Shown: one piece after another, positions 2,223 through 57,000 of the stretch
Layout: each line of letters starts with the position of its first letter
Position numbering within the stretch: the stretch's first letter is position 1
From: Lampris incognitus
Taxonomy: Eukaryota > Chordata > Actinopteri > Lampriformes > Lampridae
DNA: 64,000 nucleotides
Assembly (NCBI RefSeq): GCF_029633865.1
Contig: NC_079223.1
Coordinates: 32,676,923-32,740,922, forward strand
Reading direction: 5' to 3'
Program-made: the position numbers and the translations under genes
The notes under the pieces: model-generated
What the model was told of the DNA's origin: nothing
The model's input: the letters and a program-made list of their open reading frames with translations, nothing else
Databases searched by the model: none

Positions 2223-4356
2223 CGCTGCCTTGTTCTCAGGTTAAATCGTGCGCCCCGGCACGCTCCCTGTGCACAATTAACCCTTTGATGGCGTCTCAGT
2301 TTTCTGTTGCTCTTAAAGATTCTATGCTTCACACCCTAGATGACTCTTGTAATCTCAGTGCTGATGACATTACCACTCTTTTTAGCTCTACCTGCACTGA
2401 CATACTGGACTTGGTTGCTCCTGTTGCAACCAAATGCCCTAAACCAGTGACAGAACCATGGCTCAATGATACCACCCACGTTCTTAGATACACATGTAGA
2501 CGCGCTGAGAGAAAGTGGAAGAAAGACAAACTTCATGTTTCCTTAGGAATTCTAAGAGACTGTTTATCAGAGTAACAGAGAGCCATTAAATCTGCAAAAA
2601 CACAGTTTCTATCAAACCTTGTGTCCAAGAATTGTCATAGGCTCAGGTTCTTTTTAATACTTTTAACTCTTATAAATCCATGCGATTCTCCTTGCATTGT
2701 GCCAACACCCACACTCTGTGAAGAATTTCTTAAATTTTTTTACAGATAAGATCTCTGCTATTAGGACCTCACCATCTTCTTTGGCCTCAGATCCTGTTTA
2801 TTCTATGTGCCCAACTGTCTTAGAGCAGTTTGAGCTCATGTCCCTCTCCTTTATATCTGAGGTAGTTAACCATTTGAGGCCTTCACATTGCCCCCTTGAC
2901 AGTATTCCATCCAGACTGTTAAAGGATGTTTTCACTACTGTTGGGTCTTGTATTGTATATTTGATAAACACCCCTCTTCTCTCAAGGTGTGTTCCAGCTG
3001 CTTTCAAACATGCTGTAGTACAACCCCTCATCAAAAACAGCAACGTTGATCCCTCTGTTCTTTCTAATTTTAGGCCAATTTCTAAGCTGCCTTTTCTTTC
3101 AAAAGTCTTAGAGAACACAGTTTATGTACAATTACAAACGCACCTAGAAATTAATAGCATTTCTGAAAAGTTCCAGTCTGGTTTCAAATCATGTCACAGC
3201 ACTGAAACAGCCCTTTTAAGAGTTTTTAATTATCTTCTTTTAACTATGGACTCTGGGAACTCTGCTCTTCCAGGGCTTTTGGACCTGACTGCTGGCTTCA
3301 ACACGGTTGCCCATAATATTCTTTTATCATGTCTTGAACTGTGTGTAGGCATTAAAGGCACTGCCCTAGAATGGTTCAAGTCTTATCTGTCAAATAGAAG
3401 CGTTTCTGTCCATATAGACCAATTCTCTCCAGCTGCAGCCCCACTTAACTGTGGGGTCCCTCAAGGCTCCATTTTGGGCCCCATTCTCTTCTCATTGTAC
3501 ATACTGCCCTTAGGGTCAATTTTTAAAAAAAAAAACATAAGTCTTTTCATTGTTTTGCTGATGATTTGCAAATCTATCTGCCTATAAAACAAACAGCAGA
3601 GATTCTATACAGGCTTTGCTTAGTTGTTTCAAGGATGTCAACACATGGATGGAGTTAAACTTCCTGAAACTAAATCAAAATAAGACTGAAATTATTGTAT
3701 ATGGACAACCTGATCTTTTGGATGGTTATGATAGCGCTCTTGGCCCTTTAGCTTCCTACAATCACTCTTCTGTTAGGAATCTTGGTGTGCGTTTGGACAG
3801 CTCTTTTAACTTTGAAATAAGCTAAGTAGTTAAAACAATTTTTTTCAATTGCAACTTCTGGGGAAAAGTACAGGCCTACCTCCCTGCAAATGATCTTGAA
3901 AGGGTAATCCATGCATTTATTACCTCTAGTTTGGATTATTGTAATTCATTGTATGTTGGTGTAGCTCAGTCGTCACTTCATCACCTGCAGCTTGTACAAA
4001 AATGCAGCTGCTCGCCTTCTGACAGGAAAGAAACAACGTGACCACATAATGTCTGTACTGGCCTCCCTTCATTGGCTTCCTGTCTATTTTAGGATCCAGT
4101 TTAAGATTGTATTACTTGTTTTTACATCTTTAAATGGGCTGGCACCATCTTATTTATCTAAGCTAATACATCATCATACACCAGTCAGAGCACTCAGGTC
4201 AACAAACAAGATGCTCTTACATGTTCTGAGATCTAGGCTTAAGAATAGGGGCGGCAGAACCTTTGCATTGGCTGCCCCTGATCTCTGGAACAACTTACCA
4301 GTACACATAAGATCTGCTCAGACCCTAGAGACTTTTAAATCTTTGTTAAAGACCTA

Positions 4357-7600: not shown

Positions 7601-7759
7601 GTATTGTAGCGAATTCGGGGGGCAGTCCGAGATACCGTCGCCACAACCGGGACGGGAACCCGTATCTCCTGCACCGCAAGCGACAACGTTAACCAGTCGA
7701 CTAAAGGGTCCGACCCGTTAGTCAAGGACCAACGTGTCTACTTATCCATGCACGTTACA

Positions 7760-7773
7760 CTACCCCCTCCTTC
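7760..7773 (-). promoter_or_regulatory. Polypurine tract
   Basis: On the minus strand the sequence is GAAGGAGGGGGTAG, directly abutting the TGTAAC start of the 3' LTR. This is where plus-strand DNA priming would start. Confidence 0.7.
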
Positions 7774-7856
7774 GGGAAGCGCGTCCCCGCGCCTAAGCAT
7801 ATCAGCTCCTTCACGCCTCAGGGCGCATACGCTTCCGATGGCCTTACGGTCGCTCC

Positions 7857-7874
7857 ATCCCACTTCTGACACCA
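7857..7874 (-). promoter_or_regulatory. Primer binding site (tRNA-Leu type)
   Basis: On the minus strand the sequence is TGGTGTCAGAAGTGGGAT, one base after the 5' LTR. From memory of vertebrate tRNA-Leu 3' ends (ATCCCACTTCTGACA plus CCA) this is an 18-of-18 complement. Confidence 0.75.
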
Positions 7875-7919
7875 ATGTAGCGAATTCGGGGGACAACGCA
7901 ACCACAGGAACTGCCGCGG

Positions 7920-7980
7920 CCGGAAAGCGAACCCGTATCGCCCGCACCGCAGGAGACATCGCTAACCGCTCGACTAAAGG
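7920..7980 (-). promoter_or_regulatory. tRNA-like A and B boxes inside the LTR
   Basis: On the minus strand TAGTCGAGCGG (7966-7976) fits the Pol III A-box consensus TRGYNNARNNG at every position. GGTTCGCTTTCC (7922-7933) differs from the B box at one key base. Spacing is about 33 bp, as in a tRNA gene. The 48428 copy has the same two boxes (TAGTCTAGCGG, GGTTCGCTTCC). Confidence 0.6.
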
Positions 7981-8104
7981 GTCAGACCCGTTAGTCAAGG
8001 ACCAACGTGTCTACTTATCCATGCACGTTACAGTATTCTGTCGCTGTCGCCTGTCGCATATAAACAAAACAGGACAGGTTTCAGGAAACTCCAGATCAGC
8101 TCCT

Positions 8105-23778: not shown

Positions 23779-23951
<173 letters not shown>

Positions 23952-36097: not shown

Positions 36098-39000
36098 TAT
36101 AAAAATCAAAGACTGATCAAATTTGGAAATTGTCTAAGCTAATAAACGTAGCAGTTTAATAGTTGGATAAGAATGAGAGCCACCATTTTAGGATGAGTTA
36201 AGGTCAAGCAAAGGCCTTTTTCTGTCTGTTGACAGCAGTAAAACCCTCAAAGCTGGAGGTGACATCGTATCTTCTAACACGTCATAAACATTGTTAATGG
36301 GCAGCCCTGCGTGTGGTTAAAAGTCTTTTATCCAGTATACCATATGGAAAACCAGTTTACATTTGCAGTTAACATTCCATTACAACCTACCGACAATCAG
36401 ATCAACCTGAGGGTGCATCTGTCTCACGTGTTCTTCAAAAAGGTCCATCACTGCTGTCAGAGCGGCTGGATCCTTCATGATGGGACAGATGTCTCTGCAC
36501 ACAATAGAATCAGAATCAGATTTATTGCCAGGTAAAAGAAAATACAAGGACTTTATCTTGGTATGTTGGTGCAAGAGGGAAAAAATAACATTAAATAGTA
36601 AAGATAAAATTCAAAAAGAATGATAAATTAAAATATATATATATATATATACACAAGATAAAATAAAAATGAAAGTAAGGTGCAATAATCATCGGTTCAG
36701 AGTTGAAAATGAGACCACGTGGTAGCCCATGATGCCTGGCACTGGCTGAGAGCTGTATTTACAAAGTTAAATGAAAATTTTAAGAAGTCATTTATATAAC
36801 TTCTTAAAATTCTCATTTGACTTCAATATAATAAGAGTTATTTACAGGTTACTGAAGGTTTTATGCAGGGTGTCCATATACAGAGAGCACTGTAGGGAAG
36901 ATAAAAGAGGGGGAGGCGGTGGCAATATCAGGATCTGTGGGTGTCTGGGGATTTGTTAGAAAGGCCTACTGCTGTAGGGAAGAATCTGTTCTTGTGGCAT
37001 GAGGTTCTGGTTTTTATAGACCTTAGCCTCTTGGCAGAGGGGGGAATTTTGAAGAGACCATGACCTGAGTGGGAAGGCTGGACCATGATCTTTCCTGCTC
37101 GCCTCAAGTGTCCTCGAGGCGTACAGGTCCTGCAGGGATGGCAGGTTCCAGCCAATCACCCTCTCGTTAGAGCGAATAATACGCTGCACTCTGCCCTTGT
37201 CCTTGACAGTGGTAGCAGTGTACCAGATAGTGATAGAGGAGGTGAGGATGAACTCAATGATGGCAATGTAAAAGTGCACTATCATTGGCTTTGGCAGGTT
37301 GAACTTTTTCAGCTGCGGCAGGAAGTACACTTAATTTCATTGTACAGCTGTGCAATGACAAATAAAGGCATTAATTAATTAATTAATTCACCCATTCATT
37401 CGTTCATTCATTCATTCATCCATCCATCCATTCATACATCCACTGCTGTGCCTTCTTGATGAGGGAGAAAATAAAGAAAGAAAAGAAGAAAGCCACTTTA
37501 TTTTTGTCAGTGTACAGTTTACAACTAAATTTGTTCTCTGCAATTACCCCTTCCTATTGTATAGGAGCAGTGAGCAGCTGCAGCATCCGGGGACCAACTC
37601 AGTTCTTCTTTCCATTGCCTTGGTCAGGGGCACAGACAGGAGTATTAACCCTAACGTGCCTGTCTTTTTGATGGTGGGAGGAAACCAGAGCACCCAGAGG
37701 AAACCCATGCAGACACGAAGAGAATATGTAAACTCCACCCAGTAAGGACATGGGATGGCCTGGGGTTCGAACCCAGGACCTTCTTGTTGTGAAGCAACAG
37801 TGATAACCACTGGGCCCCCATACTACCCTACAGTTGATGTTCAGTGGGTTCAGATCCCACTTGAGGTCCTAGGAGATTATGCTACCCAGGAAGTGGAAGG
37901 ATTCCTCAGTGTCGACTGGGGAGCCACACAGGGTGATGGGGGCGGGTGGGGCTGGGTACAAGTCCACAACCATCTCCACCGTCTTCAGAGCATTGAGCTC
38001 CAAGTTGTTTTGGCCACACCAAGACACCAGATAGTCAATCTGGTGTCTTATCATCCCCACCAGAGATAAGGGTGGTGATCAGCAAACTTATGGGCCTTGA
38101 CTGATTGGTGACTGGAGGTGCAGCTGTTCGTATACAGGGAGAAGAGTAAAGGGTAAAGGACACATCCTTATGGGGAACCGGTGCTGATAGTCCAGGAGTC
38201 ATAGACATGTTTCCTCAGCTTCACGTGCTGCTTCCTGTCAGATAGGAAGTCGTGATCCACCTGCAGGTGGAGACAGACAGGCACATTCAGCTGGGAGAGC
38301 TTGTCCTGCAGCAGATCCAGTATGATGGTGTTAAAAGCAAAGCCAACATCCACAAACAGGATCCTGGTATAGGTTCCTGTAGAGTCCAGGTGCTGGAGGA
38401 TGACGTGCAGCGTCATGTTTACTGCATCGTCCACAGACCTGTTGGTTCTGTAGGTGAACTGCAGGGAGGCCAGGTGTGGGACAGTGATAGTTTTAAGGTG
38501 GGACAAAACAAGGCACTCAAAAAACTTAATTACCAGAGGCGAGGGCAACAGGTCTGTAGTCATTGTGTCCTGTGGGCCTTGGTTTTTTTGGGGGATGAGG
38601 ATGATGGTAGAGGTCTTGAAGCAGGCTGGTATGTGGCATGTCTCCAGTGAGGTGTTAAAAATGTCTGTGAACACCGGAGACAGCTGATCAGCAAACTGCT
38701 TCAACCATACAACATAGCTGGTCTCACAATCATCTTGTAAACCTTCCCTTTAACTCTTGCTGGTACCCTTTTCTCGCAAATCACTCCTGACATGCTTCTC
38801 CACCCACTCCACCCTGCCTGCACTCTCTTCTTCACCTCTCTTCTGCACTCCCCATTACTTTGAGCAGTTGACCCCAAGTATTTAAACTCATCCACCTTCG
38901 TCACCTCTATTCCTTGCATCTTCACCATGTATTCTATCTTGCGCCTGCTGACTTTCATTCCTCTTCTCTCCAGTGCATATCTCCACCTCTCCAGGCTCTC

Positions 39001-46896: not shown

Positions 46897-47112
46897 CAGT
46901 GCATCCGGAAAGTATTCACACCCCTTCACTTTCCCCACATTTTGTTATATTACAGCCTTATTCCAAAATGGATTAAATTCCTTTTTTTCTCATCAGTCTA
47001 CATACAATACCCCATAATGACAAAGTGAAAAAGGTTTTGTAGAAATTTTTGCAAATTTATTAAAAATAAAAAACTGAAATATTGCATGCACATAAGTATT
47101 CACACCCTTTAC

Positions 47113-48132
47113 TCAGTACTTGGTTGAGGCACCCTTGGCAGCAATTAGAGCCTCAAGTCTTCTTGGGTATGAAGCTACAAGCTTGGCACACCAATATTTG
47201 GGGTATTTCTCCCATTCTTCTCAGCAGATCCTCTCGAGCTCTGTAAGGTTAGATGGGGAGCATCGCTGCACAGCTATTTTCAGGTCTTTCCAGAGATGTT
47301 CAATGGGGTTCAAGTCTGGGCTCTGGCTGTGCCACTCAAGGACATTCACAGATTTGTCCCGAAGCCACTCCTTCGTTGTCTTGGCTGTGTGCTTAGAGTT
47401 GTTGTTGTGTTGAAAAGTAAACCTTCGCCCCAGTCTGAGGTCCTGAGCGCTCTGGAGCAGGTTAACATCAAGGATCTCTCTGTACTTTGCTCCATTCATC
47501 TTTCCCTCGATCCTGACTAGTCTCCCAGTTCCTGCCGCTGAAAAGTATCCCCACAGCATGATGCTGCCACCACCATGCTTCACTGTAGGGATGGTATTAG
47601 CAAGGTGATGAGAGGTGCCTGGTTTCCTCCAGACGTGACGTTTGGCATTCAGGCCAAAGAGTTCAATCTTGGTTTCATCAGACCAGAGAATCTTGTTTGT
47701 CATGGTCTGAGAGTCCTTTAGGTGCTTTCTGGCAAACTCCAAGCGGGCTGTCATGTGCCTTTTACTGAGCAGAGGCTTCCGTCTGGCCACTCTACCATAA
47801 AGGCCTGATTGGTGGAGTGCTGCAGAGATGGTTGTCCTTCTGGAAGGTTCTCCCATCTCCACAGAGGAATGCTGGAGCTCTGTCAGAGTGACCATCGGAT
47901 TCTTGGTCACCTCCCTGACCAAGGCCCTTCTCCCCCGATTGCTCAGTTTGGCTGGGCGGCCAGCTCTGGGAAGAGTCCGTGTGGATCCAAATTTCTTCCA
48001 TTTACGAATGATGGAGACCACTGTGCTCTTCGGGACCTTCAAAGCTGCAGAGATTTTTTTGTACCCTTCCCCAGATCTGTGCCTCGATACAATCCTGTCT
48101 CGGAGGTCCACAGACAATTCCTTTGACTTCAT
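47113..48132 (-). pseudogene. Tc1 transposase, full length with lesions
   Basis: 339 codons from ATG 48132. N-terminal paired-like helix-turn-helix ('YKKISAALKVPKSTVVSII'), an AT-hook-like 'GRPAKLS', and the DDE domain: first Asp in 'LWSDETKIELFG', third acidic residue in 'SPDLNPIEHLW'. The block normally written QxDNDPKHT reads 'QHNNNSKHT', so the second catalytic Asp is Asn. A TGA at 47221-47223 (after residue 303) precedes 35 more in-frame codons ending 'AAKGASTKY'; it fits a CGA-to-TGA change. The enzyme would be inactive. Confidence 0.93.
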
Positions 48133-48427
48133 GGCTTGGTTTCTGCTCTGACATGTACTGTCAACAGTGGGACCTTATATAGACAGGTGTGTGCCTTTCC
48201 AAATCATGTCCGATCAGTTGAATTTACTACAGGTGGACTCCAATCAAGATGTAGAAACATCTCAAGGATGATCAGTGGAAACAGGATGAACCTGAGCTCA
48301 ATTTTGAGTGTCATAGCAAAGGGTGTGAATATTTACGTACATGCAATATTTCAGTTTTTTATTTTTAATAAATTTGCAAAAATTTCTACAAAACCTTTTT
48401 TCGCTGTGTCATTATGGGGTATTGTAT

Positions 48428-48584
48428 TGTAACGTGCATGGATTAGTAGACACGCTGGCCGCTGGCTGGCGGGTCTGACCCTTTAGTCTAGCGGTTAACG
48501 ATGTCTCCTGCGGTGCGGGCGATACGGGTTCGCTTCCCGGCCGCGACAATTACTGTGGTTGCGTTGTCCCTCGAATTCGCTACA
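48428..48584 (+). mobile_element. Solo LTR of the miniature element, in Tc1 arm
   Basis: TGTAACGTGC...GAATTCGCTACA, 157 bp, flanked by GTAT (48424-48427, 48585-48588). The other arm of the same Tc1 (about 47003-47020, reverse complement) shows the empty site with a single GTAT, which proves the duplication. Confidence 0.9.
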
Positions 48585-48688
48585 GTATGTAGATTGAAAA
48601 AAAAAAAGGAATTTAATCCACTTTGGAATAAGGCTGTAACTTAACAAAACGCGGTGAAGGGGTGTGGATACTTTCCGGATGCACTGTA

Positions 48689-51027: not shown

Positions 51028-54000
51028 ATGTTCGTTTCTTGTACGTACCTGAAGTCATTATGGAGATCTTTGAATCACGTTTCCTCCCGGTTCTGTAAAT
51101 TAACAGCAGAGCACCCGACGTGCACCGGAAGACTCGTGCACACTAAAACCAACAGCAGGACCGGTCCATTCAACACAAGTAAGTGCACACCTGGCTCAGG
51201 TTTAGGAAGTGCCGACATAGCGCTACATCCGTGGTTCTCAACTGCTAGTTTTAGTGATGCATATTTGCAGTCAGGTACTCAAAAAAAAAAGTTAAATTGA
51301 GGTTCGCTGCCAGGGAGTCTCGTGTCATGAGAGGCGGATATATTTAACATAATACATGTACAACTATACAGGTACATTGTCATTTACCATATAATAATGA
51401 TGACAGGCTCTGCGTTTGAGAATGGGTCACTGGAAAATCTAACATGTCTTCACATGCAAGTACTGCTCCGTTCAGCTGCACCTGTTAGGAGCTCAGGTTT
51501 AGGAGGTGTTGGTTCCTGCTGCACCCCGAGCAGCTACCGCACCACGCCAGCGTAGTGCTGCATCCGTGGTTCTCAATCAGGTCCTCGGGAACCTGCAGTA
51601 ATGCTAGATTAGTTCGTTACTACCTTCACCTGTTGTTCCACGTGTAAAACCTCCCAGATTGGAGGCTGAATATCTGGAACAGCAGGTGAATGTAATGAAC
51701 TAAAACCAGTAGTACTAGTGGTACCTGAGGACCCGATTGAAAACTACTGCTTTGCAATATTACTGTATAGTGCCAGAGATGCTTTCAATATTCAAATGCA
51801 TTCAACGTTTAACATTTGTACAGAGGAAGACGCAGAAGACAGGAAGAGATGGAAACTGATGATCCGCTGTGGCGACCCCTAACGGGAGCAGCCGAAAGTA
51901 GCAGTAGTAATAGTAGTAGTAGTAGTAGTAGTAGTAGCAGTAGTTACATGTTAAGACAAGTTAGATTTTCCAGTGACTCGTTCTGAAAGGCAGAGCCTCA
52001 TCATTCTAATATGGTAAATATACATGTATGATGTTAAATGCATTGGGCTGTCACGACATGAGACTCCCTGGCAGCGAAGCTGAATTTAATTTTTCATGAG
52101 TACCTGACTGCAAATGTGCATATCTAATATTAAAAGCGTGACAAACTGGGACATTCCGCTTTATCAGCCTTCCACCTTTAATATGGAATTTGCAACTCAA
52201 GAATCGATGAAGACTAGAAGACTCATGAATACGTGAAATAAACAGCCAGCACACACACTATAAATGTTCAATAGTTTACTAACGGCCATCCATGAGAAAG
52301 TGGGTGCGGTTTGGATGCATGACTACACATTTTGACCCCAAGTTGGGTCATTTGGTGCCAAATGTTGGCTGTTAGCATCCCACAGTACAGATCTCTCAAG
52401 TCATGCTTCACGTTGGGATTGCATTTCCATCGATGTGTCAGCTCAATGGGAAAAAGTCATGAAAATGTGAAAAGATGTCTGTTCAGGGGTGCTGTTAAGA
52501 CTGTTGTATTTTTTGCTGTTGTTTGAAACCAATTTGCCTGCCGAGTCTGTAAACCTCCATTATTACCCTGGACCCTTTCTGCACCTCTCTGACCCGAGTC
52601 TCTCCTCATTTTATTGTCTTACTGTTTTCTTTCCAAGGGAAGCTGATGCGAAATGGGGAAGAAAAGAAACCAGTGGTAAGTCTTCACCCGTTTCACTGGT
52701 GATTGATTCATGAACGCACCCCGTCCATTCGTTTCTGTGGGGGATTTTCCCTTTTCAGTCACTGATTTATGTGTTATTCTGGTCGACCACTATATACACC
52801 TGAGACTGCTACGCTGAGATCACAGTATTTTGTTTCTGTAATTCTAATCCCAAATCTACAATAGATTATCCTACATTGTAAGCACACAGAAAACACCAAC
52901 AGTTCATGAAAGCATTCATCTGTAAATGTCTAAGAGCCAACACGTCAGATGCTGTTCAGTTTTAAGTAACTGTCAATGAGAATTAATTTTCTGCTTTAGC
53001 CACAATTGCTTTTTTTTAAACACTCAAAATCTGTTACAACAAATTCATTAAAACCCGTTAATCTTTTTCTGTTTCCATTTGGAGATCTGTGTTGAAGGGA
53101 ACATTGCCAGTGGAAAGTCAACATGTCTGGAGTATTTCAATAAAACCAGTAACATGGAGGTAAAACAAAGCTAAGTTGTTTTTTTTGTTTTTTTTTTTCC
53201 AATTGTGGTTGGTGGTCAGGAACTAGGGGTGGGATGATTTACAAATCTCACGATTCAGGGCTCATAATTTCGATTCAGTACGATACAGTGGATGCCTTGG
53301 TAAGCAAGAGACAAAACACCATTGCAGTTGTCTATTTTTCATTTATTTTAAGAATTAGGCCCAACAATTTGGCATTATCAAGGCACGTATTCAAACGTAA
53401 TGCAAGTGCAAAAGGTCTAACAAAATTTTGTGCAATCTTTTCTTGTAACACAATTGCTTTATTTTAAAACTTTAAACACTACTAGAATGACCAAAGCGGT
53501 CATTTTCACCATTCTGGATTTTCAAACTTTAATTACTTTGTGGGGGAAAAAAAAAGAAAAAGATACAGACCTGCTGCTCCCTGAATGCTCCTAAAATTGC
53601 ATATATTTGCATTAAAATGAGTTTTAGATCAATTGCACAAAAAAGTTAAGATATACCTAAAACGACCACAAGTGGTCAAAAGGATCGTGCGTAATTTGCG
53701 CGTCATCATGCGCGTCATGTCACTATTTATGATGTGTCTTGGTCACATTTCCTTCACAACGTTCAGTTCTTTTTTTTTTTACATTTCACGTTTTATAGGC
53801 CTTGTTATGTTTGTTAGATTAGCAGTATATGTTTTCCGTTTTGTTTTTCAGGTATTATTTCCAGCATGTATGGGTACAGCCGCCGTTTCAGACGCACCAT
53901 GATTACCATCGAGGCATTGCAGTATTTACAGGCGTTGGACAGCTGCGATTTTGAATTGTTTGAAAAATAGTATTGTAAAGATCACGGATGTGTAGACTTG

Positions 54001-57000
54001 CTAGCCCTTTGGCTAATGGGTCAGACCCTTTAGTCAACTGCTTAACGTAGTCGCCTGTGGTGTGGGAGACCCAGGTTCACATCCTGTCTGCAGCGGTTCC
54101 CGGCTGCCCCCTGAATTCGCTACAGTATTAAAGTTGTTAAAATGGTAATTTTGGTGTCAGTCGTTTCTTAACCGACATACTAACACATGTAATGCATTAA
54201 TATCTCAGTTGGGTATTTATCTTGACAGAATACAGAGTTTAAACACCAGCGGTCAATTTAGACAGGAGTGAAGTCCCTGTCGTTCTAGTGTTAATAACAC
54301 ACGGTCTCGCGAAATGGGCAGCATCTCGAACCGTGAAGACTGTATCGAATGATTTGGAATTCGATCCAGTATCATCCCACCCCTATCAGCAACTATTATT
54401 TACTTCTTGGGAAGTAAGAAGTTTTGCTGCAAAGACATTTGACCGAATCTTTGCTCAGTAGCTTGTTCTCAGTCTGCACGCTGCAGAAAACAGAAACTGA
54501 ATTTGATGAAGGCGTTCAGAATTTATTTTTTTATTTTATTTTTTTTGCTTGAAATCAGAATTAGAAGTTGAATGGAATGAAAAAATTCAATTAAAAACAA
54601 TATATTCAATTAGTTCGATAAAATTTTAAATAATGTTATTCAAATCCACTTTGAGCACAACAATTCAGTTTTAAGAATAATAAATTCATTTTACTCAGTC
54701 TGTGTGCACTGATACCCGGCCATAGAAATGGCCATCTTTATACTGAACTGGTCCATTCCAGGTCATTCCAGCCTTCTTTAATCAGAAACGTTACATTAGA
54801 TGAGGAAAACAAAACTTTCTATATTGCTTGTTCTCTTTTCTTTCATGTCGTTTCAGGTCCTGATAGAACCCGTTTCCAAATGGAGGAACGTCCATGGCCA
54901 CAACCCTCTGGTACCGCATATGACCTTACTGACTGCATATTAGTGGTCCCTGCCTTCACTTTATATTTGTTTCCATCTCAGTTTTGTTTTAAATCACAGG
55001 TCAGTTCTGAAAATGGATGCCAGTAGGTCAACAAATGGCAAAACTAATATTAATTTAAATGAACCAGTACTTCAGAAAAAGAGAGACACATTTGTCAGTT
55101 ATAGTCCAGCCAACTGGGCATCAAAATTAATTGGACTATTGTAGAAAAATACATTCATGGTAGCCGAGGTGGAAGCATCATTGGCAGTCAATTCTTTACA
55201 GTAACACAAAATGCCTCAACATTAATCCAGAAGCCATAGTCTCAGTCTGACCCTCCCTTCACCTGCAGCCATTGTGTTTTGGGTGTGTTAGTTTTGTGTC
55301 TACGTGTCTCCCTGCAGGGTCTGATGTATCAGGATCCTTCACGTTGGGGGATCACACTGCAGACGTACATACAACTCACAATGCTGGACGGACACCTGTC
55401 CACCATAGTAGGTAGACTCAACCACCTCAACACACAATCACTTATCACAGAAATTCAACGCTTCAACACCTGAGGAACAGCATTCAAGCTGTCTCTCATA
55501 AACCACTTCTGAACCGACACGGGGCCGGTGCTGACTGTTGAACCAAATCTGGACTGTTACAAAAAACAACTTGGTTCTTGGCCGGCGAAGTTGGCTTCGT
55601 TCAGGCACAGTTTGCCGTTCGATCTGGACAGTAGGAACCCGTGACGTCGAGGTTGGGTAACTTCACCACCTCAGAATACATCCACACTAACATGTACTAA
55701 TTGGGAAAACACATTTTCCCCTGTAATTCGGCCTTCCATCCACATTAATCCACCGTACGTGACCACTAAAATGGAAACGCCGATCTGGTGTTGTGTGGAC
55801 GGTGTGAACAGCTCTTTGAAGATGCTGATGTGTTGTCATGTGATCAGTGTAAAGCTGCTGGCTCATGTGACATGTGCTTGGCAAATAAAAGACTTCAGCA
55901 TTTGTTTTCTGTTTCGGTGTTTCAGTGTGGATGACCATCTTTTCAAAAATGATCCCAAAAGCAAGTGTGGACGGAAAATTCTTATCTGTGTTCGTGTGGA
56001 CGTACTCTAAACCAATGTCGCCACAATCTCACCAACATACCGTCACCACTTGACTGATTTCATATGCTGTCAGTAGTGAAAAGTACAAACACATTAGTGA
56101 TTTCTGATGGTGTTGATATAAAAATTAAAGTCTCGGCAAATGGAAGCAGTGATTACAGGTCAGTCTTCGCTCGAAGTAAAAACCAAAAGTCATTGCGACT
56201 GACCACCAGATGTAAATATTGCTGGTGGCAGTGGTGACAAGTAACCATGAACTGACTTTTTTTTTTTTTAATTTTCTCCCCTTTTCTCCCCAATTGTATC
56301 CGGCCAATTACCCCACTCTTGCTCCACCCCCTCTGCCGATCTGGGGAGGGCTGCAGACTACCACATGCCTCCTCCGATACACATGGAGTCGCCAGCCGCT
56401 TCTTTTCACCTGACAGTGAGGCGTTTCGCCAGGGGGATGTAGTGCATGGGAGGATCGTGCTATTCCCCCCAGTCCCCCCCCCCGAACAGGCACCCCGACT
56501 GACCAGAGGAGGCACTAGTGAAGCGACCAGGACACATACTCGCATCTGGCTTCTCATCTACAGTCACAGCCAATCGTGTCGGCAGGGACACCCGACCAAG
56601 CTGGAGGCAGCACAGGGACCCGAACCGGGATCCCGTGTTGGTAGGCAATGGAATAGACCGCTACGCTACCCGGATGCCCCCTGCCCCATGAACTGACCTT
56701 TAACGTGAGCAGCAGAAATGACGAAATAAAGAAAAACGTTATGGCTAACTTAAGGCCAGTTCATACGCACTTGGGTTTTGCATTTGTACAGTAAGACATC
56801 TGGTTAACACTGTCATCTGGTTATGTAATCATTCACCCATCAAAATGGTGGAGCTGTGGGCTGGTTGGTGAAAAGGTATGTGGGGTCTCTGGAGGACCAC
56901 CAGCTCTGCGCTGGCCCCGTGTCGGTGGAAAAGGGTATTTGTGTTAGTAGGTGGATCTTAGCCTCAAATAAAGGTGAAAAGCTCCATGAGTCTTTTCCTG

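Follow-up and report, generated by a model that had tools for sequence, protein, structure and literature searches.

The locus examined here, 428 bp without genes in DNA of the fish Lampris incognitus, raises two questions: what kind of mobile element it represents, and why its two LTRs do not match. The window, that is, the whole stretch of DNA that was analysed, comprises 64,000 nucleotides of contig NC_079223.1 (assembly GCF_029633865.1, positions 32,676,923 to 32,740,922), and all coordinates given without a locus label refer to it, apart from positions within the LTR (1-157). The best explanation for the whole, to which we assign a probability of about 0.9, is a Helenus-type terminal-repeat retrotransposon in miniature (TRIM; TRIMp3) on the minus strand, with a cycle that would depend on Pol III and borrowed proteins, and with the window copy as a mixed product.

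Anatomy and tRNA-like promoter

Direct reading and a repeat search of the window delimit a gene-less retroelement at 7605-8032, formed by direct repeats at 7605-7759 (155 bp) and 7876-8032 (157 bp), both with TG...CA ends, around an interior at 7760-7875 (116 bp). It is assigned to the minus strand because its primer-binding site (PBS) and purine tract fit that strand only. Its parts, its target duplications (TSDs) and the related pieces elsewhere in the window are as follows, with the LTR sub-families a and b described further below:

7605-8032, minus strand: whole element, LTR-interior-LTR, 428 bp (from reading, repeat search and own-genome copies)
7876-8032, minus strand: 5' LTR, 157 bp, downstream part of sub-family a, with b-type (H1) bases at 28-42
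7966-7976, minus strand: box A-like TAGTCGAGCGG in the 5' LTR (from sequence)
7923-7933, minus strand: box B-like GGTTCGCTTTC in the 5' LTR (from sequence)
7875, minus strand: spacer T, one base, between 5' LTR and PBS (direct reading)
7857-7874, minus strand: PBS TGGTGTCAGAAGTGGGAT, 18 nt, complementary to the tRNA-Leu(CAA) 3' end plus CCA
7760-7875, minus strand: interior, 116 bp (from locus annotation and interior alignment)
7763-7773, minus strand: polypurine tract GAAGGAGGGGG, followed by TAG and then the 3' LTR (from reading and interior alignment)
7605-7759, minus strand: 3' LTR, 155 bp, sub-family b (from LTR comparison)
7693-7703, minus strand: box A-like TAGTCGACTGG in the 3' LTR (from sequence)
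7650-7660, minus strand: box B-like GGTTCCCGTCC in the 3' LTR (from sequence)
7601-7604, no strand: TSD GTAT, left (direct reading)
8033-8036, no strand: TSD GTAT, right (direct reading)
23779-23852, minus strand: LTR fragment of the same family (family match)
48428-48584, plus strand: solo LTR of type a with GTAT on both sides, in the apparent terminal inverted repeat of a Tc1-like transposon
53970-54124, plus strand: older solo LTR with GTAT on both sides (family match)

The lengths of the repeats and interior, the TG...CA ends and the outside GTAT are as an earlier note on this DNA had given them, and its 18-nt PBS candidate one base past the 5' LTR is borne out on the minus strand, where it matches two tRNA-Leu(CAA) genes of the same genome (L121 and L122, both intron-bearing as judged by eye and neither followed by CCA). 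The purine tract, which the note had set directly against the 3' LTR, is present, but TAG lies between GAAGGAGGGGG and the LTR, so that the tract does not strictly abut it. What the note missed are the strand of the element, the abnormal, non-matching state of its LTR pair, and the tRNA-like Pol III promoter in each LTR, the feature that defines Helenus.

To score this promoter, we used the box A consensus T-R-G-Y-N-N-A-N-N-N-G on 136 LTR records, made up of 134 from 67 LTR pairs and two solo LTRs (131 distinct sequences, with some middle LTRs of arrays counted twice). GGTTC stands exactly 32 nt after box A in 114 of the 136 records and in none of 5440 shuffles, and at any gap of 20-60 in 117 records, compared with 0.5% of shuffles. 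The Rfam tRNA model gives no match in the window element or in 10 of the loci, and ARAGORN at default settings finds no tRNA in the window; for this reason, the promoter is a tRNA remnant at most. TTTT, present in 35% of shuffles, occurs in 2/136 LTR records and none of 40 interiors, but this scarcity is weak evidence, as the copies are kin and GGGG is equally strongly depleted (7/136 records, 67% in shuffles). A hairpin over the presumed transcription start, GACTAACGGGTC-x-GACCCTTTAGTC, is kept in most of the 136 records; we make no claim for it, because the common variation, A to G, affects one side only. As a separate observation, positions 1-260 of locus L119 hold a satellite-like array of ~27-bp units similar to the LTR stretch (GACTAACGGGTCGGACCCTTTAGTC-like) in which Pol III is presumed to start.

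Copies, target sites and the probable primer tRNA

A search of the own genome (1.48 Gb) with the whole element gave a first sample of 40 matches scored out of 4627 candidates, of which 39, the window copy included, cover at least 411 of the 428 bp at 90-100% identity and one covers 374. When annotated with LTR and interior probes, these loci resolve into LTR-interior-LTR units and some longer arrays, with exactly two whole LTRs in 33 of them. A second sample came from a search with the interior alone (40 scored of 2031 candidates; 37 loci fetched, the window copy and L023 being already in hand), and LTR sequence lies close on both sides of the interior in 35 of these 37 loci. Together, the own-genome copies and the flanking LTRs of the interior-only loci indicate that the element is not a chance arrangement. 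The interiors are near-constant in length (117 or 118 bp in 32/40, range 107-125), and the exact 18-nt PBS is kept in 31 of the 40 interiors of the first sample.

Among the first-sample loci, 39 groups have three parts or more, and 29 of these carry exact 4-bp TSDs, distributed over ATAT (14), ATAC or GTAT (8) and seven others, with NTAN in 28 of the 29. Across loci, the flanks share only scattered stretches (nine matches listed, most simply dispersed repeats; ~200 bp in common between L001 and L026, arranged differently), and the insertions are therefore taken as independent. The full LTR-interior-LTR copies in the host genome and the solo LTRs in the window are both of the kinds that the earlier note had proposed to collect, and together with the anatomy they support its reading of the element as a TRIM with PBS, purine tract and TSD.

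The solo LTR at 48428-48584 also provides an uninterrupted site. It interrupts the right end of the Tc1-like transposon, which spans 46993-48640, and adjoins a transposase ORF at 47221-48174 (minus strand, 317 aa, open; HTH_SB 1.3e-27). The uninterrupted counterpart is the other terminal repeat, at 46993-47013, reading GGGGTATTGTATGTAGACTGA; removal of the solo LTR and one GTAT restores the same 21 bases with one difference, which supports a true 4-bp duplication.

In 200 kb sampled at round coordinates (20 pieces, one of them beside the window, with 5200 bases N), we found no full copy, only older pieces. In two sequence collections that do not hold vertebrate genomes as such, an exact 24-mer of the tRNA-like core had no match (viral_contigs and genome_contigs), nor did a 25-mer of the PBS region (viral_contigs). 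At L055, positions 1756-2911 are an array in which older LTR starts, covering about LTR positions 1-122, are joined to the interior's purine-tract end; LTR end and PBS seem to be lacking.

The earlier note had named copies existing only as single 155-bp units as the mark of a SINE; instead, the LTR-interior-LTR arrangement recurs with 4-bp TSDs. That the element is a tRNA-derived SINE lying twice in tandem by accident is thus highly improbable: its LTR does have a SINE-like tRNA head, and single units and fragments exist, but interior-only loci carry LTR sequence at both sides (35/37), the near-constant interiors contain PBS and purine tract, 4-bp TSDs lie outside the pair, and the ends are TG...CA.

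Some LTR ends carry longer copies of the same tRNA, beyond the 18-nt PBS. A 29-base pattern (the LTR end ACA, the spacer and 25 nt of tRNA complement) occurs at 11 places exactly and at 26 with at most two mismatches, and a 39-base pattern (35 nt of tRNA complement) at four and 12, respectively, while the reversed controls give 0 in both cases. The last 22 bases of tRNA-Leu(CAA) have 39 exact copies in the genome, 13 of which coincide with LTR-type places of the 29-base pattern. Five of the 26 places were read (L119 and L123 to L126, three of these being among the 12), and in all of them the tRNA sequence comes after a Helenus-type LTR end, with uninterrupted matches of 29, 35, 33, 28 and 26 nt. 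Read by eye, the tRNA copy in L123, L124 and L126 passes into LTR sequence in inverse orientation, at a join that in L126 sits at T-loop sequence, which resembles box B, and in L125 it is followed by purine tract and LTR start. These extended copies are probably fossils of tRNA priming, in which the primer would have been copied beyond the usual 18 nt before a template switch; with five places read, they could instead represent a longer PBS inherited in one sub-family.

In class, the element is an ordinary member of the known kind Helenus, placed there by its features; the tRNA-like Pol III promoter in each LTR is what makes it one. Helenus elements are TRIMs of 311-1263 bp, defined in 2024 by features of this sort and described from six animal phyla, ray-finned fishes included, with hosts such as coelacanth, sterlet, paddlefish, zebrafish and other Ostariophysi (Kojima 2024, PMC10886601), so that the earlier statement that TRIMs are described mainly in plants is outdated. 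In vertebrates, their PBS matches tRNA-His, -Leu or -Lys, their TSDs in animals are 4 bp long, fish families have been aligned with tRNA-Val, zebrafish LTR-11_DR forms tandem arrays, and Gypsy has been inferred as the helper from PBS likeness (Kojima 2024, PMC10886601). The present element is likewise short and without coding capacity (428 bp, two LTRs of 155 and 157 bp, interior of 116 bp), with boxes A and B within its LTRs (114/136 records, though the Rfam tRNA model is silent), a PBS to the 3' end of a tRNA, here tRNA-Leu(CAA), GAAGGAGGGGG and TAG before the 3' LTR, 4-bp TSDs (29/39 groups) and solo LTRs. It differs in its mixed sub-family LTR pairs and extended tRNA copies, neither of which is mentioned in the accessible part of that description. 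With the plant TRIM Cassandra it shares a Pol III promoter within the LTRs, the lack of genes and tandem arrays (Kalendar 2020), but Cassandra is 5S rRNA-derived and has an LTR terminator, whereas nearly all LTRs here are without a four-T run. With tRNA-derived SINEs (SINE2) it has in common the type 2 Pol III promoter and the tRNA origin; unlike it, these lack LTRs, PBS, purine tract and an integrase-type TSD.

Insertions with LTRs of two sub-families

The LTRs fall into types a and b. Most of the differences between them lie at positions 62-142, and a haplotype at 28-42 is linked to each, H2 to a and H1 to b. In these terms, the window copy is H1a-H1b: its 3' LTR is of type b, and its 5' LTR has b-type bases at 28-42 and is of type a from about position 49 onwards. 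The two agree at 131 of 152 aligned bases (86.2%) and belong to two sub-families, which is not what an origin of both from one template would give, although they may have changed later.

Over both samples, 67 LTR pairs comprise 23 aa, 11 bb, 29 ab and 4 ba, with exact TSDs at 13, 7, 20 and 2 of these, respectively. The pair rule demanded that both LTRs be longer than 135 bp and close to the interior, and so left out, from the interior-only search, L064 (ba by a looser count), L077 and L023 (type a paired with a truncated b) and further loci whose LTRs are truncated. These counts are biased, as the ab and bb pairs were all taken from the first sample, picked by likeness to an ab element, that of the window, and the aa pairs all from the interior-only sample. 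The latter holds 23 aa, 2 ba and 1 ab (the window copy), hence three mixed among 26 pairs, a proportion that is no genome-wide rate because the absence of bb from this sample shows that interior-based picking favours sub-family a.

Minor variants distinguish matched from mixed pairs. The LTRs of aa pairs share them at 1-25, 26-48, 49-61 and 62-142 (p 0.0005-0.0025; 143-157 not significant), and those of bb pairs at 62-142 (13 compared with 2.18 expected, p 0.0005), with too little variation elsewhere to tell; both patterns are in line with canonical reverse transcription. In ab pairs, variants are shared at 1-25 (6 compared with 1.74 expected, p 0.0005) and not at 26-48, 49-61 or 62-142 (at the last, 9 compared with 8.77, p 0.57). 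In composition, the 29 ab pairs are 15 H2a-H1b, 13 H1a-H1b and 1 H2a-H2b, and no matched H1a pair occurs in either sample (0/23 aa). Judged from their sequences, mixed pairs with intact TSDs recur in both orders and are not a product of canonical LTR retrotransposition. Among the papers listed in a literature search, no title or beginning of an abstract dealt with TRIMs that have mixed LTR pairs, which is not proof that there is no such paper.

As to how they arise, we lean towards a change that postdates insertion, either gene conversion or recombination between neighbouring LTRs within a b-a-b array. Arrays of this form exist in L002, L013 (with an extra partial b) and L017, next to an a-b-b-a array in L025, and L013 and L025 have exact TSDs outside; recombination of the first two LTRs of b-a-b would leave a-b with the original duplication. 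The first 25 bp, at which ab pairs share variants, behave like the outer LTRs of an array, and the switch points in mixed 5' LTRs vary, largely within stretches where a and b are equal, which favours recombination and gene conversion. Against this weighs that a second event is required for each mixed copy and that double-switch mosaics are few, the 3' LTR of L020 being the clear case. Three-LTR complexes can arise by template switching (Sabot and Schulman 2007), and our arrays resemble them in their outside TSDs and alike outer LTRs, as in L013; those complexes, however, are found mainly in large Copia elements, and the two-LTR mixed pair is untreated in the accessible part of that paper.

An origin in reverse transcription is possible but rather less probable. 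Here, a and b RNAs would be packaged in one particle, and the first strand would continue beyond the PBS, enter the second RNA at its 5' end and then make another jump, so that the two LTRs would derive from different RNAs; more rounds would yield arrays. The exact TSDs at 22 mixed pairs (20 ab, 2 ba), the occurrence of both orders and the cases in which a strand has switched from tRNA primer sequence to an inverted LTR are consistent with such a course, and the absence of matched H1a pairs, together with a switch at 42-49, where a Pol III start would lie, in nine of the 13 recombinant (H1a) 5' LTRs, favours RNA strand switching. No single fixed RNA end is seen, however, since the switch lies at 28-32 in L009, at 23-28 in L028 and further downstream in L006 and L011; base 49 does not separate the types in every case, as 4/55 b-type LTRs have the a base there; the 3' LTR is H1 with b in 28 of the 29 ab pairs, which would need an extra switch in the interior; and the ab pairs all stem from the sample chosen by likeness to an ab element.

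A wider form of this idea, which we regard as doubtful, is that the LTRs of one insertion would often be built from two co-packaged RNAs, owing to the lack of a Pol III terminator and hence of a defined RNA 3' end. Mixed pairs, arrays and primer-copy fossils would then all be its traces.

A proposed cycle and the search for a partner

Taking the element as a Helenus-type TRIM, its sequence suggests the following cycle. Pol III would act through boxes A and B of the 5' LTR and start just 5' of box A, and the transcript would extend into the 3' LTR across an interior that lacks a T-run terminator. The RNA would be packaged by proteins of another LTR retrotransposon, probably of Gypsy type; tRNA-Leu(CAA) at the PBS would prime the first strand and the purine tract the second, and a borrowed integrase would carry out insertion at NTAN targets, duplicating 4 bp. 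Mobilisation in trans by another LTR retrotransposon, as the earlier note had proposed, is thus something that we still infer.

The note had also suggested looking for an autonomous partner with the same LTR ends and PBS; no such partner was found among 20 candidate places examined. Pattern TGGTGTCAGAAGTGGGATH occurs at 1082 places (reversed control 0), from which those on the first contig were listed and 20 fetched. By eye, five of these look like Helenus variants (L099, L102, L105, L107 and L113) and 15 like other Leu-primed sequences. L118, the region around L106, contains a retrotransposon that is Leu-primed and damaged and has RT and RNase H domains (RVT_1 3.4e-34), in our judgement a Gypsy element from its domain order, for which no LTR pair was found within 7 kb. 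We do not call it the partner, because its likeness to the element is limited to the PBS and eight of nine bases of the LTR end. At positions 2392-4056 and 5121-7001 of L118, this retrotransposon adjoins frames that, by eye, resemble gag and protease of another element. The window has RT matches of its own at 2676-3587 (plus strand, RVT_1 3.9e-17) and 38168-38749 (minus strand, 2.8e-06, under the family cut-off).

The own-genome copies, their TSDs and the uninterrupted site support the spread of a tRNA-promoter TRIM in an animal genome. Beyond what the accessible part of the Helenus description covers (Kojima 2024, PMC10886601), this genome adds probable fossils that name the priming tRNA, and a minority of insertions whose LTRs either never matched or ceased to match. 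Such mismatched pairs matter because elements of this kind are usually dated by how far their LTRs have diverged: if it is true that their LTRs come from two RNAs, the identity of LTRs at birth, on which LTR dating is based, would fail.
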